Part shown: positions 6,275 through 63,265 of the stretch, piece by piece
Numbering within the stretch: the stretch's first letter is position 1
How the letters are laid out: the number at the start of each line of letters is the position of its first letter
From: Candidatus Altimarinota bacterium
GTDB lineage: Bacteria; Patescibacteriota; Gracilibacteria; BD1-5; UBA6164
Direction: 5' to 3'
Assembly (NCBI GenBank): GCA_028713225.1
Contig: JAQTOS010000004.1
Span: forward strand, 1 to 64,000
DNA: 64,000 bases
The notes under the pieces: generated by a model
The model's database searches: none
Seen by the model: only the letters and a program-made list of their open reading frames with translations
What the model was told of the DNA's origin: nothing
Position numbers and translations under genes: made by a program

Positions 6275-6301
6275 AAAAAAGCTCCGCATTATGCGAAGCT
6301 C
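6275..6301 (-). terminator. Intrinsic terminator overlapping the stop codon of the RNB gene
   Basis: On the minus strand AGCTTCGCA, loop TAA, TGCGGAGCT is followed by six T. The loop is itself the TAA stop codon of the upstream gene, so translation ends inside the terminator hairpin. Confidence 0.8.
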
Positions 6302-7860
6302 TTGAGTCTTTTTTCCTTTTTATAGTAGTAGTTATCTCTCCATTCTCTAAATTTAGAAAATAGATTTATTAACATTTCTTCTTTGGCACTTTTCTGAGAT
6401 TTTCTCAATATACCAAAGGAAGCAGCAATATCACCTTTATAATTAATTGCTATATAGTGCATATATTCAGTGTAGTCCCTTCTCTTACTATAAACAACTG
6501 AAAAATCTCCAGTATTCTCTAGGTAAGAAAAAAAAGCCTTCTGTTTAGACGTCATATGAATTCTATAAAATGCCTTATTTGCAACAAGTTCATCATTGCA
6601 AAAAAACAATCTATATAATAATTCGCCTTTTATTAAATCCGCATCAAGTCTGTTTAGCATTTCTCCTCTTAATTGACTTGATATAAGCAAATTACGTTCT
6701 AAAACATAATCCAAAATTTCTTCAAAAAGATGAATAGAAATTCTAGAAAAATCTTCAACACTTTCACCAATAGCCACTTTATTTAAAATTCTCTCATGCC
6801 GTTTCTCTTCATCTTCAAGCTCCTTATTGAGTTGTAAATTTCGCAAATTATAAATCTGTTCATTTATATACAACGCAATATGTTTAACAGCAAAAAAGTT
6901 ATAAGCTTGCCATTTTTCAGGATTTAAAAATGCTTTAATCTGACGATGAACAACTATATCAGAGTACCTACGGATAGGACTACTAAAGTGACAATAGAAA
7001 TCAAGTCCCAAAGCAAAATGATAAATCATTCTAGGGTGATAAAATGCTCTTTGCATATTCCCCTTAAAATCCTTGTCTTTATACTCTGGCATATGATTCC
7101 GGAAAGTTGCTACAATACCACGTTCAACCATCCAACGAGCAACTGCCATATTGAAAAGAATCATAAATTCTTCAATAAGAAAACTAGGATTTTCAGTAGT
7201 ATTTGAATTTGGAAGTTCATCAAAATCAACAAGTCCTATAGCAATTTTACGGTCATCATCTGAAAATTTCATATGCTTTCTTTTTGGAGCCAAGTTTTTT
7301 GCTATTTCCAAAAAGTAAGACAAATCAGGTGACATAGGATCATTTTTATCTCTCAAAATTTGAGCAAATTTCTGATAATCAAGTCAGTGTTTATTAAAAA
7401 ACACTGACTCAAAAACATCTATAGAAACAATGTCATAATTTGCATCCAATACTACTTCAACCGTCATTGCTAATCTTTTACACTGATGATTCAAAGAAGC
7501 AATATCTGTTGAAAGTTGTTCTGGAAACATATGCAAAACATGAGTTTCATAATAAACAGATGTAGCCCGACTAAGAGCCTCCCAATCAAGATATGCACCA
7601 GTTTGTATAAGTTCTGCTATATCAGCAATAGACCCTTGTAAAACATGATTATCACCATCACGATATGCCCAAATGCCATCATCCAAATCACGCGAGTAAT
7701 ACTGATCAATAGTGATCCCAGTTATTTCTCTTCTTGAAGCGAACTCTTTAGGAATTGCTTCTTTTAAGCCTTTTACCCTTTTACTTATTCCTTTTAGTTC
7801 TTTTAGAGCCAAAGGAGAATAAGTATTATGAATAGAGTCTGTTATTTTTGGCAACTTCAT
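6289..7860 (-). CDS. RNase II/R-family exoribonuclease (RNB domain)
   Basis: A 3'-5' exoribonuclease of the RNB family. The 523 residues carry the metal-binding aspartates in TIDQYYSRDLDDGIW (about residues 50-65), GSIADIAELI, PEQLSTDIASLNHQCKRLAM and the RYSDIVVHRQI motif. No cold-shock or S1 domain is evident, which is shorter than RNase R. The last 80 residues (YKGDIAASFGILRKSQKSAK) recall a double-stranded-RNA-binding domain; that is inference. A single TGA (7384-7386) codes Gly in HGLDYQKF, where the family has its LTY segment, so the two standard-code halves are one gene. About 17 of 18 glycines are GGN, unlike most neighbours. A Shine-Dalgarno AAGGAGAAG precedes the ATG. Confidence 0.88.
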
Positions 7861-16986: not shown

Positions 16987-17736
16987 TTATTTAGCAACAC
17001 AGATATAAGTCATATCGTTAACATAGACCACATCCGATGATTCTAAAAGTTTATTTATTGCTTTTCGCAATTCCTTACGATTTTTCAATACATTATCTAT
17101 AAAATAGTATTTCCCAACAATAAGAAGAAGAATAGCAGAATCTTTGTTAGTGAAATTACCTTGATTATATTGCATAATAAGACTTTCGACTTTAAGCATA
17201 TACATTACCGAAAGAGCCATAGCATCTTCCTTATTAGTATCTTTCAAAAAATCAAAATCCTCAAAATATGCAACTCTAAAACCAACTTTATATGAATAAT
17301 CAATGAAAAAATTACCAACCATGAATGAAACAGAGTCATATCGTGAATCAAATTTTGCGGCAAATGCATCCTTGAGATAATCTAAATCATCATAAAGAGC
17401 TTTAACAACAAAATCTTTTTTATCATCATCAATACTATCCTTTATCAATAGGAAAGCAATTACTGCTACGAATACAGTCAAATGCCAAAAGTATTGCTTA
17501 TATTCTGGATTTTTAAGAATCATAAAGAGCAAAATAGATGAAACTACAAGCCCAATAATACCAGCTCCAAACATAGAACCAAACACTCCATTTTTATGTT
17601 CTTCTTTATCATCTAAAGACACTCTTGCTGCAAGATTTTGCAACGAAAATTTATCTTCAGAAGTTTTAACTTCACCTGAAACAACAGCTCCAAGTCCGGC
17701 AATTTTTAACATATCTCTTCTAGAAATCTCGCTCAT
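16987..17736 (-). CDS. Membrane protein of unknown function with Tat-like N-terminus; UGA-free
   Basis: 249 residues, unrecognised. The N-terminus SRRDMLKIAGLGAVVSG resembles a twin-arginine signal or N-terminal anchor, but a charged stretch follows. Two hydrophobic helices lie at about residues 50-75 (FGAGIIGLVVSSILLFMIL) and 82-98. The rest is soluble, rich in Asp, Tyr and Phe. All glycines, about 12 by my count, are GGN, although the genes around it use TGA freely. A GTG three codons upstream is also open, but AGAGGTGA is placed correctly for the ATG at 17736, which I chose. It is a single gene with its own promoter and terminator. Confidence 0.7.
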   Translation of the reverse strand: MSEISRRDMLKIAGLGAVVSGEVKTSEDKFSLQNLAARVSLDDKEEHKNGVFGSMFGAGIIGLVVSSILLFMILKNPEYKQYFWHLTVFVAVIAFLLIKDSIDDDKKDFVVKALYDDLDYLKDAFAAKFDSRYDSVSFMVGNFFIDYSYKVGFRVAYFEDFDFLKDTNKEDAMALSVMYMLKVESLIMQYNQGNFTNKDSAILLLIVGKYYFIDNVLKNRKELRKAINKLLESSDVVYVNDMTYICVAK

Positions 17737-17741
17737 CACAA

Positions 17742-17827
17742 TCACCTCTTTTTTTTTTGTTTTTTTGATTTTTATCCCTTTAGAAGGAACTTAAAAATGA
17801 TAATAATTAAAATGTCGATTAAGTCAA
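17742..17827 (-). promoter_or_regulatory. Promoter and Shine-Dalgarno site of the UGA-free membrane-protein gene
   Basis: Minus strand: -35 TTGACT (17822-17827), 16 bp, -10 TATTAT (17800-17805), and AGAGGTGA (17742-17749) in front of the ATG. Confidence 0.65.
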
Positions 17828-19310: not shown

Positions 19311-19331
19311 AAATCCCGCATATGCGGGATT
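19311..19331 (-). terminator. Terminator overlapping the stop codon of the UGA-free gene at 19330
   Basis: ATCCCGCA and TGCGGGAT form a stem with a two-base loop. On the minus strand it is followed by TTTTT. The TAA of the gene (19330-19332) overlaps the base of the stem. It also lies 3 bases behind pepD, where the opposite flank is only weakly T-rich. Confidence 0.75.
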
Positions 19332-19980
19332 AAATAAGACAGAGTTCTCTTCGATCTGTATTCTCATCAATAACAGTATCGTGAACATAGCCAACTGCTT
19401 CTTTTGTTGATAAATCAACAGCTACAATGAACTTAGACTCAGAAGGATAATAATCCTGAAACTCAAGAAAAATCCTTTCAAATCGATTAAAATCGATTTC
19501 TATTCCCGTATCAGGTTGAGAAACTTGTTGTTTTACATTAAGAACATCAAATACAAATGAAATCGGAAAATGTATAAGCTCATATGATTTAACACTTCCA
19601 TCTTTCAATTCAAAACTCTCGAGTTCCGACATAATAAAAGAAGTCTCAGGCAATGAACCAATACGTTCATTAACATCCTTAAAATCTTTGCTATCTGGAT
19701 TTATAACCTCAGATTTTGTAACATTTATAAAAAATGGGATTGCATCCAAATCTGAGAATCCATTTCGGCAAAGATAATGTAGGTAGTTTTGCATATCCAT
19801 TGGAGTAATATTCATACTAAAGTCTTCATTATCTGTGATTGGATAAGGACTATTTGTTTGAATAAACTCCTCAAGATTATCCATAGGGATAACAATAGTC
19901 AGAGCTTTACATAAAACACCATCTACAATTACCTCATATTCAGTTGTTAAAAATCCAACATTTTCAATTGCATCTTCCAT
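19330..19980 (-). CDS. Unknown protein, UGA-free, with strong Shine-Dalgarno site
   Basis: 216 residues, acidic, no signal peptide or membrane helix, no recognised domain. Regular beta-like stretches occur (FLTTEYEVIVDGVLCKALTI; SKFIVAVDLSTKEAVGYVHD). It might be a small alpha/beta regulatory or immunity-like protein, but nothing supports a specific role. All seven glycines are GGN. AAGGAGGAAGTT precedes the ATG, a near-perfect Shine-Dalgarno sequence. It has its own promoter and terminator and is convergent with pepD and divergent from pheA. Confidence 0.7.
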   Translation of the reverse strand: MEDAIENVGFLTTEYEVIVDGVLCKALTIVIPMDNLEEFIQTNSPYPITDNEDFSMNITPMDMQNYLHYLCRNGFSDLDAIPFFINVTKSEVINPDSKDFKDVNERIGSLPETSFIMSELESFELKDGSVKSYELIHFPISFVFDVLNVKQQVSQPDTGIEIDFNRFERIFLEFQDYYPSESKFIVAVDLSTKEAVGYVHDTVIDENTDRRELCLI

Positions 19981-32273: not shown

Positions 32274-32428
32274 ATTAAATTACTCTAAATATATCTACTT
32301 TAAAGCAAAACCAAAAACTTTTTTTAAAAAGACACCTAAAATTTAAGATGAATTTAAGGTCTAGAATTTAAAACAGCAAAAAGAAGCACTTTCGTGCTTC
32401 TTTTTGGCTTAGATTTCATTTGGTGGAG
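32274..32428. repeat. Right direct repeat, overlapping the 3' end of ssrA
   Basis: Partner of 25866-26006. It contains the tmRNA terminator (hairpin 32378-32405) and the final eight bases of the tmRNA. Beyond position 32428 the tmRNA continues here, while the left copy diverges. Confidence 0.85.
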
Positions 32429-32885
32429 CTAGACGGATTCGAACCGACGTCTTAGAAGCTTAACCTTACAATTCTACTATAGATAGTTCATTTTAAATAC
32501 TTGCATCAAAAATAAAATAAACAAAAAATGATGAAAGTGAAAATTCTCTTGGTACTCATAAAGACAAGAATTTTAAAAACCGTGTTTATAAGACTATGCT
32601 AAATATTTCTTAAACCCGCATAGTGGAATCTAGGAAATTTTGCGGCAGGCCAATCGGCACTCATCCCCTTGGGGAGACCACGTTTTTACTTTGCTTTTTG
32701 TTGCTTAAAATTAAGCAGCTAGAGCGAAAGAAGGAGTTGAAACTTTTTTAACAAAAGCAGTCAAACCAGCATACATTCTATTGTTTGCATTTATTTTTGT
32801 GTCAGATTGATTAGGAAGTCCCAACACATCTCCCCTATAGCATGCAAAGCTAAGGAATCTTCTAATAGAAACCAAGATTAGCCCC
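32421..32885 (-). ncRNA. ssrA: tmRNA (ssrA)
   Basis: tmRNA frees ribosomes stalled on mRNA without a stop codon and tags the peptide for proteolysis. The 3' end reads GGTTCGAATCC, TAGCTCC and ACCA; the 5' end GGGGCTA pairs with TAGCTCC as acceptor stem. The CCA is encoded. Inside lies a tag frame ending ALAA (32711-32788). Length is 465 nt. A promoter sits upstream: TTGATA (32920-32925), 16 bp, TATAAT (32898-32903). The terminator hairpin (32378-32405) lies in the direct repeat. The 3' end of this gene is a known favourite of integrating elements. Confidence 0.95.
32711..32788 (-). CDS. tmRNA proteolysis tag
   Basis: The frame from the likely resume codon GCA reads ANNRMYAGLTAFV then KKVSTPSFALAA and TAA: 25 residues ending in the ALAA degradation signal. 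This is longer than the 10-residue tag of E. coli. The single Gly is GGT and not TGA. Confidence 0.88.
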   Translation of the reverse strand, partial: ANNRMYAGLTAFVKKVSTPSFALAA

Positions 32886-46284: not shown

Positions 46285-46662
46285 ATGAGACATCAAGGAA
46301 TTTTGGTTTTAGGTCGAGCAGACTTGGGACTTGTAAACTTCTTCAGTTCTATGCAAATGCCTTCGATGTATAGAAAATCTCTTAAAAAAGAAGAGTGTGA
46401 AAATTTGCCTGCAATTATTCCCGAGCATCTTGACATAGTAATCTTATGTGATGATATTTTGGAAAGCAATGATATTGTAGCTTTTTGTCAAAAACATGAG
46501 TTAAACCTACTTTCCTTAACCGGAGAAAAAGTAGCATTACCTAGTCCATTAAATTTCGTTTTTGACGAAATGGATGACTACAATGAGTTGAATATTTTAT
46601 CTTCTGTAAAAAGAATGAGAGAAGACTTCAAAAACATGCGAGAGCAAGAAAAAACTGCTTAA
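46285..46662 (+). CDS. Unknown UGA-free protein
   Basis: 125 residues. It begins MRHQGILVLGRADLGLVNFF, contains HLDIVILCDDILESNDIVAF and ends in a charged helix (VKRMREDFKNMREQEKTA). The strand-helix alternation suggests a small alpha/beta fold, but no family is recognised. All four glycines are GGN. It is a single gene with its own consensus-like promoter, a Shine-Dalgarno sequence and a terminator, and it belongs to the set of UGA-poor genes. Confidence 0.68.
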   Translation: MRHQGILVLGRADLGLVNFFSSMQMPSMYRKSLKKEECENLPAIIPEHLDIVILCDDILESNDIVAFCQKHELNLLSLTGEKVALPSPLNFVFDEMDDYNELNILSSVKRMREDFKNMREQEKTA

Positions 46663-52686: not shown

Positions 52687-52757
52687 TTTACATATAAAAG
52701 ATTTGCTCTTATAAAATTTATAATTTGCAAAAACAAAAATTAATTTTCCCAAGGAGG
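52687..52757 (+). promoter_or_regulatory. Promoter and Shine-Dalgarno site of the gene at 52763
   Basis: TTTACA (52687-52692), 17 bp, TATAAA (52710-52715), and a full AAGGAGG (52751-52757) six bases before the ATG. This is the strongest ribosome site in the window. Confidence 0.7.
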
Positions 52758-52762
52758 AAAAA

Positions 52763-53146
52763 ATGAATCAAAAAGCTCAAATACTATCTATTAGATATGA
52801 AAAAGGACACTCCGGTTTAATTAGCGGAGTTAACAGAAAAAGTGCTATCAAACTTGAACGTAATCAAAGTGTACAAGGTGGATGTGGAACATACAGAGTA
52901 AAGACCGGATCTGAGCTTGAAGTCTTAGTTAAATTTGCTGATAATACAAAAGAGTTTGTAAATATTAAATATTTTTTAAAAACAAATTTAAATATTGGAC
53001 AAATTACAGCAAAGAGACTTGAAATTTTCAAAAACACATTAATCGGCCGGGATATCATAATCGAAGTCAACGAAGATTATATGGCTATTCCCTATGATAA
53101 TGAAATAAATAAAAAAATCATTGAAGACTTGAAAAAGTTAATTTGA
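52763..53146 (+). CDS. Unknown UGA-free protein, apparently terminated by TGA
   Basis: 127 residues, basic, with beta-like segments (YEKGHSGLISGVNRKSAIKL; LEVLVKFADNTKEFVNIKYF) and a helical end. No recognised family. All nine glycines are GGN. The only stop before the terminator is TGA at 53144-53146, with a second TGA two codons on. Under code 25 the frame would run through the terminator hairpin to a TAA at 53198, 12 or more bases beyond the expected end of the transcript. I give the standard-code end here. Either UGA is meant as stop (foreign gene), or the transcripts end without a stop. Confidence 0.65.
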   Translation: MNQKAQILSIRYEKGHSGLISGVNRKSAIKLERNQSVQGGCGTYRVKTGSELEVLVKFADNTKEFVNIKYFLKTNLNIGQITAKRLEIFKNTLIGRDIIIEVNEDYMAIPYDNEINKKIIEDLKKLI

Positions 53147-53155
53147 TTTTGATTT

Positions 53156-53186
53156 AACTCTCCGCAATTGTGGAGAGTTTTTATTT
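53156..53186 (+). terminator. Terminator after the gene at 52763
   Basis: AACTCTCC and GGAGAGTT pair around an eight-base interior, followed by TTTATTT. It lies 9 bases beyond the TGA. Confidence 0.82.
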
Positions 53187-53243
53187 GCAAAACTTTATAA
53201 ATATATTAAAATTATCATTAATTTAATATATAAATATTAATTT

Positions 53244-62623: not shown

Positions 62624-63265
62624 TTAATATTGTGCATAACCTTCATGACCATCAGGGGCACCTGAAGGTAGAATATCAGCAAGTACATCATAACCAGGAA
62701 AAGCTGGAGATGTTTTTTGTGGTAGTGGGTCCGAAAAATTATCATTCAGACGGCTTTCAGGAAGAACTATAAAGTCATCTTGATTAGGATCAATTGTATC
62801 ATTCAGACCACTTTCAGGAAGAACAATAGAGTCATCCTGCTTAGGAGCAATTGTACCATTCCAACCAGAAAGGTCGAAACCGACTGATTCAAGAGTACGA
62901 ACGATAAAAGCTACATCAACATCTTCAGCGATAAGCAAATCTTCTTTCCCTTTAAATGCTCTCATGATTTGACCAGTATTTAATGGGTAATTCAAATCAT
63001 CTGAAAAATGAGATGCCCAATATTTTGCTTTATCATAAGCAGCAGCCATTTTTGGAGATAAGTTATTATAAATAAGTCCTATCATTTCTGAATTAGGTGC
63101 TGATTTTGTATCCCAAATAATAAGAGTTGCTTCATTATAAATTGTTGCTCTGTTAAGTCCATCTGGAACTAAATCAGCAATTTCATTTCCAAAGGCAGTT
63201 ATAGCCAATCCCATAACTTTTCCTTTAGCAAGTTCTCGTGAAGATTCATTCAAGTGTGATTCCAT
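62624..63265 (-). CDS. Unknown UGA-free protein with C-terminal acidic repeats
   Basis: 213 residues. The N-terminal half is helical with some hydrophobic residues (ELAKGKVMGLAITAFGNEIA; IGLIYNNLSPKMAAAYDKAK). After residue 135 there are two copies of a segment of about 19 residues (PKQDDSIVLPESGLND; PNQDDFIVLPESRLND), then a Pro-rich tail ending GHEGYAQY. No recognised family. All 15 or so glycines are GGN, although the neighbours use TGA. It has AAAGAGGT as Shine-Dalgarno sequence, a full promoter and its own terminator. Confidence 0.68.
   Translation of the reverse strand: MESHLNESSRELAKGKVMGLAITAFGNEIADLVPDGLNRATIYNEATLIIWDTKSAPNSEMIGLIYNNLSPKMAAAYDKAKYWASHFSDDLNYPLNTGQIMRAFKGKEDLLIAEDVDVAFIVRTLESVGFDLSGWNGTIAPKQDDSIVLPESGLNDTIDPNQDDFIVLPESRLNDNFSDPLPQKTSPAFPGYDVLADILPSGAPDGHEGYAQY

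Follow-up and report, generated by a model that had tools for sequence, protein, structure and literature searches.

The gene at position 52,763 of the window, i.e., of the whole 64,000-nucleotide stretch of DNA that was analysed, carries a UGA codon and an intrinsic terminator ahead of the first stop that the genetic code of this bacterium provides. We propose, with a probability of about 0.6, that it is a recently imported standard-code gene whose UGA stop is now read as glycine, giving rise to a nonstop mRNA and to a product that is tagged by tmRNA and degraded. Because the same layout is common to six other unrelated TGA-poor genes, including one for ClpP, the nonstop mRNA seems to be a side effect of taking in standard-code genes rather than a means of regulation. 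Gene acquisition is the main explanation, and it was absent from the options of a preliminary description made from the sequence alone.

The proposed course is as follows. A whole standard-code unit would have been imported with its own Shine-Dalgarno sequence, UGA stop and terminator, UGA probably being the stop in the donor organism. With UGA read as glycine, ribosomes would pass the old stop, and RNA polymerase would halt at the terminator before reaching TAA 53198, leaving most transcripts without a stop codon. Ribosomes that reach the 3′ end would stall there, to be rescued by tmRNA and SmpB, which would add a tag ending in ALAA and lead to degradation; the tag would probably mark the protein for destruction. 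A minority of read-through transcripts may yield protein with an 18-residue tail. The proposal is supported by the anatomy of the gene, by a genome that lacks RF2 and has tmRNA and SmpB, by the gene's foreign character, and by the recurrence of its layout in other TGA-poor genes.

Anatomy and foreign character of the gene

Coordinates are collected in Table 1. The sequence elements that the preliminary description had pointed out are all there: nine GGN codons and no TGA before TGA-TTT-TGA, a terminator directly after it, and a code-25 frame that crosses the hairpin to a TAA beyond the expected transcript end. The terminator has a 10-pair stem, a loop of 4 and a T-run. Its statement that UGA is the only stop before the terminator is correct, with the qualification that an in-frame TAA exists, but only past the terminator. 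The hairpin alone has a predicted energy of −14.7 kcal/mol, and the transcript is expected to end at about 53184-53190, which would place TAA 53198 about 8-14 nt beyond its 3′ end. GC by codon position follows a coding-like pattern as far as the TGA (0.39/0.27/0.22), and the 18-codon tail departs from it (0.17/0.44/0.28).

Table 1 Features of the 52763 gene and TGA-ended genes of the same genome
Feature	Location	Strand	Remarks
Candidate σ70-type promoter TTGACT-16-TATAAA	52671..52698	+	Found by eye, not reported by a stricter scan; begins within the T-run that ends the upstream gene's terminator
Strong Shine-Dalgarno AGGAGG	52752..52757	+	5 bases upstream of ATG
ORFan coding sequence	52763..53143	+	127 codons; nine GGN and zero TGA glycines; foreign codon usage
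TGA-TTT-TGA	53144..53152	+	Presumed donor stop and backup stop; Gly-Phe-Gly expected here
Code-25 extension, 18 codons, GFGFNSPQLWRVFICKTL	53144..53197	+	Full translation only if the terminator is passed
Intrinsic terminator	53156..53188	+	10-bp hairpin (53156-53179) and T-rich tail
Promoter-like TTGCAA-16-TAAAAT	53185..53212	+	Belongs to the downstream pilin-like gene
First in-frame code-25 stop TAA	53198..53200	+	Past the terminator, within the next gene's promoter region
tmRNA	32421..32885	−	Rfam RF00023, 66.6 bits; tag frame ANNRMYAGLTAFVKKVSTPSFALAA followed by TAA
TGA-ended, terminator-capped gene	Window 52763		
TGA-ended, terminator-capped gene	L059 5672-7189		
TGA-ended, terminator-capped gene (ClpP)	L071 11565-12215		
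TGA-ended, terminator-capped gene	L118 6282-6980		
TGA-ended, terminator-capped gene	L119 11222-12094		TGA inside the hairpin
TGA-ended, terminator-capped gene	L123 10352-11266		TGA inside the hairpin; the longest ORF extends upstream past the likely start, and this extension contains a second TGA
TGA-ended, terminator-capped gene	L126 14039-14767		TAA very close to the hairpin, may be part of the transcript
Eighth TGA-ended gene	L122 16487-17899		TGA overlaps the next ATG (ATGA); 9 more residues before TAG

The gene is a single one, and its TGA-rich neighbours on the two sides have 11 and 27 TGA glycines. Promoter-like sequences similar to that of the downstream gene precede two more pilin-like genes (on contigs C7 and C12), right after the terminator of the upstream gene. 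The sequence is shared by window 53178-53228 and the ends of these two contigs, and because two contigs end inside such genes, pilin-like repeats probably break the assembly. A mobile cassette downstream, considered upon a DNA match within the own genome, was rejected; the match is the promoter common to the pilin-like genes.

The 52763 gene looks foreign by its absence from relatives and by its atypical codons and signals, which suggest an acquired standard-code gene. Its codon usage with glycine excluded is more foreign-like than that of 99.5% of native genes. A search of 440 genomes of the phylum (60 close and 380 others) at E ≤ 0.001 matched only G000 and no relative, and no homologue came from phages, plasmids, IMG/VR or a scan of GTDB genomes. 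When 84,980 genomes were scanned for patterns of this protein and of an HDOD protein, no donor emerged, and viral scans with four TGA-ended proteins gave nothing. As neither donor nor homologue was found, the case for acquisition rests on composition, Shine-Dalgarno sequences and absence from relatives. In a same-genus genome a contig break falls at the corresponding place, so that no empty site is demonstrable there. The HDOD protein is matched only in plasmids of Arcobacter and Aliarcobacter, at 27-28% identity, which gives a weak hint of Campylobacterota as a donor. The 52763 product reaches the cut-off of no family in Pfam or NCBIfam, has no significant PHROG and one insignificant PDB match, and its single-sequence AlphaFold model (pLDDT 36) is useless.

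Shine-Dalgarno sequences were scored as AGGAG, GGAGG or AAGGA ahead of the first start codon. Native genes nearly lack them (2/588), unlike TGA-free genes, and the motif occurs in 15 of 33 TGA-poor genes even though these include a few probably native ones, e.g., for ribosomal proteins (Fisher p about 3e-19). Because the TGA-poor class is defined by glycine codons and not by Shine-Dalgarno sequences, this excess is an independent support. Here the native genes are 588 TGA-using genes sampled over stretches totalling 872 kb (70% of the genome; L-numbers name the stretches), called by a simple longest-ORF script with a minimum of 100 codons.

Decoding of UGA and ribosome rescue

The source genome is a 1.24-Mb draft of 19 contigs with 97% completeness. 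Glycine in the window is encoded by 716 TGA versus 486 GGN codons (TGA about 60%), as is characteristic of code 25. The gyrA gene contains 28 TGA in this genome and 35 in a same-genus genome, and the ORFs of the first genome sample alone contain 4758 in-frame TGA codons.

In this 97%-complete draft RF2 is absent, as the prfB model matches only the RF1 gene, and does so below cut-off; the same gene scores above cut-off with the RF1 model, so prfA is present. The RF-1 domain model reveals nothing beyond RF1, neither prfH nor an ArfB-like gene. A residual chance is left that RF2 lies in the missing ~3% of the genome. Loss of prfB with retention of prfA, UGA being a glycine sense codon, has been described for code-25 Gracilibacteria and SR1 (PMC6851277), and the genome studied here is alike in all these respects.

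A tRNA with a UCA anticodon adjoins tRNA-Phe on contig C7 (sampled in L022 and L049) and was labeled SeC by ARAGORN. It carries G1-C72, C2-G71 and U73, which are the glycine identity features of tRNA-Gly; judged by these features, it fits a glycine-type tRNA, as expected in code 25. Because RF2 is absent while RF1 and this tRNA are present, UGA should be a sense codon here.

The genome also contains SmpB and a tmRNA, so that a rescue system for nonstop mRNA is in place. The tmRNA was missed by ARAGORN but found by Rfam, and its tag frame is unusually long, with 25 residues ending in ALAA. The preliminary description had offered two options, UGA still acting as a stop or a nonstop mRNA with tmRNA tagging; the absence of RF2 and the presence of the UCA tRNA, tmRNA and SmpB favour the latter.

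Recurrence of the layout in other genes and a relative

By a script followed by inspection of the same data, eight TGA-poor genes ending in TGA were compiled from the 872 kb. In seven of them a hairpin follows the TGA and lies wholly before the next TAA or TAG, which is the case for none of the 588 native genes; a terminator comes after the stop in 73 of the latter. With TGA encoding most glycines in the window and no native gene having the layout, the arrangement at 52763 goes beyond chance. The exception lies in L122:16487-18414 on contig C12, where two genes overlapping by ATGA probably form an imported operon; by eye, the second gene looks LemA-like.

One of the seven encodes a second ClpP (C8:71565-72161, i.e., L071:11565-12161), which contains 17 GGN and zero TGA before codon 200, and a terminator comes after its TGA. 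The native ClpP (C7:63089-63664) contains eight TGA. The second ClpP is 50% identical to the native one versus 62-68% to the ClpPs of ordinary bacteria, and distant standard-code relatives are supported for it. Its best match among solved structures is a ClpP of 196 residues, aligned to residue 193, so its TGA approximately coincides with the end of the ClpP family. The ClpP case thereby supports the notion that UGA would have been the donor's stop in the TGA-ended class. A TGA-free L,D-transpeptidase gene adjoins the second ClpP gene.

The layout is not confined to one assembly, because the same kind of genes occur in G019, a single-contig relative. In 200 kb of it there are five TGA-ended, TGA-poor genes: a hairpin precedes the next stop in two of them, and TAA or TAG follows within 1-6 codons in the other three. 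Samples of 100 kb each from two other genomes (G006 and G008) contained no TGA-ended TGA-poor genes.

Alternative readings and known systems

The predicted strength of the terminator leaves room for a different fate of the transcript. Because a ribosome no longer stops ahead of the hairpin, it could disturb termination; its entry into the hairpin could weaken termination and TAA could then be transcribed. The acquired gene would in that case yield a stable protein with the 18-residue tail and little tagging. The short distance from the expected transcript end to the code-25 stop suits this course, as do L126 and L122, where the next stop is near enough for transcription, and the several TGA-ended genes of G019 that meet TAA or TAG within a few codons. 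It nevertheless has only a minor, if appreciable, chance, as the hairpin is strong and followed by a T-run, and a promoter-like sequence for the next, pilin-like gene is located there. It is less probable still that UGA stops translation at this site to give a 127-residue protein, be it that decoding is slow, that a factor escaped detection or that some release activity persists. Such a stop would account for the end of coding character at the TGA, for the doubling of UGA at 53144-53152 and for the persistence of eight TGA-ended genes unconverted to TAA, but has to be reconciled with a search by the RF-1 domain model that yielded no RF2, prfH or ArfB-like gene and with the thousands of in-frame TGA codons counted above.

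A nonstop mRNA could also have been programmed and selected, so that the product builds up only if trans-translation fails. The principle is established for BrfA of Bacillus subtilis, where transcription ends at an intrinsic terminator within the frame and leaves a nonstop mRNA under trans-translation control; ArfA of Escherichia coli loses its stop another way, to the same effect, and both are small rescue factors that recruit RF2 (PMC6881298). The 52763 gene resembles brfA in having a terminator inside its frame before the stop, when read in code 25, and tmRNA and SmpB are at hand. Unlike ArfA and BrfA, it is a 127-codon ORFan whose product matches neither family in Pfam, NCBIfam or PHROG. 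Regulation of this type is very improbable, because ArfA and BrfA need RF2, which this genome lacks, the layout is common to many unrelated imports including ClpP, and neither conservation nor a homologue is seen in relatives. The suggestion in the preliminary description that nonstop decay could act as built-in regulation is thus unsupported, the layout being shared with six more unrelated TGA-poor genes. It had also allowed for a sequencing error hiding an in-frame TAA. A one-base insertion near 53144-53154 would indeed bring TAA 53155-53157 into frame from another one; this triplet lies beside short T-runs, and the assembly behind the window is a draft in 19 contigs. Six other genes and the single-contig relative independently show the layout, however, which makes an error at this site hardly credible and led us to reject it as the general cause.

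Loss of product from a foreign gene that ends in a codon without a release factor has a precedent. In recoded E. coli without RF1 that received genes ending in UAG, tmRNA is the main route of rescue and was shown to cause the loss of their products (Ma et al. 2018, PMC6207430). Acquisition of the 52763 gene with tagging of its product would be alike in that ribosomes miss the stop, but that strain is engineered and its ribosomes stall at an unassigned UAG, whereas here the situation is natural, UGA is sense and stalling would occur at the transcript end. Code-11-compatible phages predicted for Gracilibacteria and Absconditabacteria, for which TGA with nearby backup stops has been reported, similarly have TGA-free genes readable in both codes, with TGA sometimes as the first stop (PMC10746230). 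Unlike these, the genes described here are single chromosomal genes rather than phage genomes, and a terminator lies between the TGA and the backup stop. In the open-access literature searched, we found no description of imported UGA-ended genes in bacteria that read UGA as glycine, nor of UGA stops left before terminators in such imports.

Whereas engineered E. coli has served to test a changed code as a barrier to gene exchange, the eight UGA-ended and probably imported genes described here, seven of them terminator-capped, form a natural set in a bacterium with UGA as glycine. They make it directly testable whether such imports are silenced by trans-translation, rescued via terminator read-through, or read normally. 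As an unlikely extension, we conceive of a natural and permanent genetic firewall in code-25 bacteria. These would routinely take up standard-code genes; the UGA-ended ones would yield nonstop mRNAs and be kept silent by tmRNA until UAA or UAG arises by mutation before the terminator, and trans-translation would then decide which foreign genes gain function. In a stronger form, genes may be kept code-neutral, with host-style ribosome sites, and be expressible in a standard-code partner cell. The set is also a warning that code-25 gene calling appends false tails to imported proteins.

The combination of a TGA-free frame, a strong Shine-Dalgarno sequence and a UGA before a terminator could serve as a simple marker of recent acquisition. 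Four more genes in the window (16987-17745, 19330-19980, 46285-46662 and 62624-63265) are TGA-free and probably imports, ending in TAA, and that at 19330-19980 has a strong Shine-Dalgarno sequence and a terminator. The gene at window 6289-7860 on the − strand, in which 17 glycines are GGN and one is TGA and several arginines are CGN, is possibly an older import.
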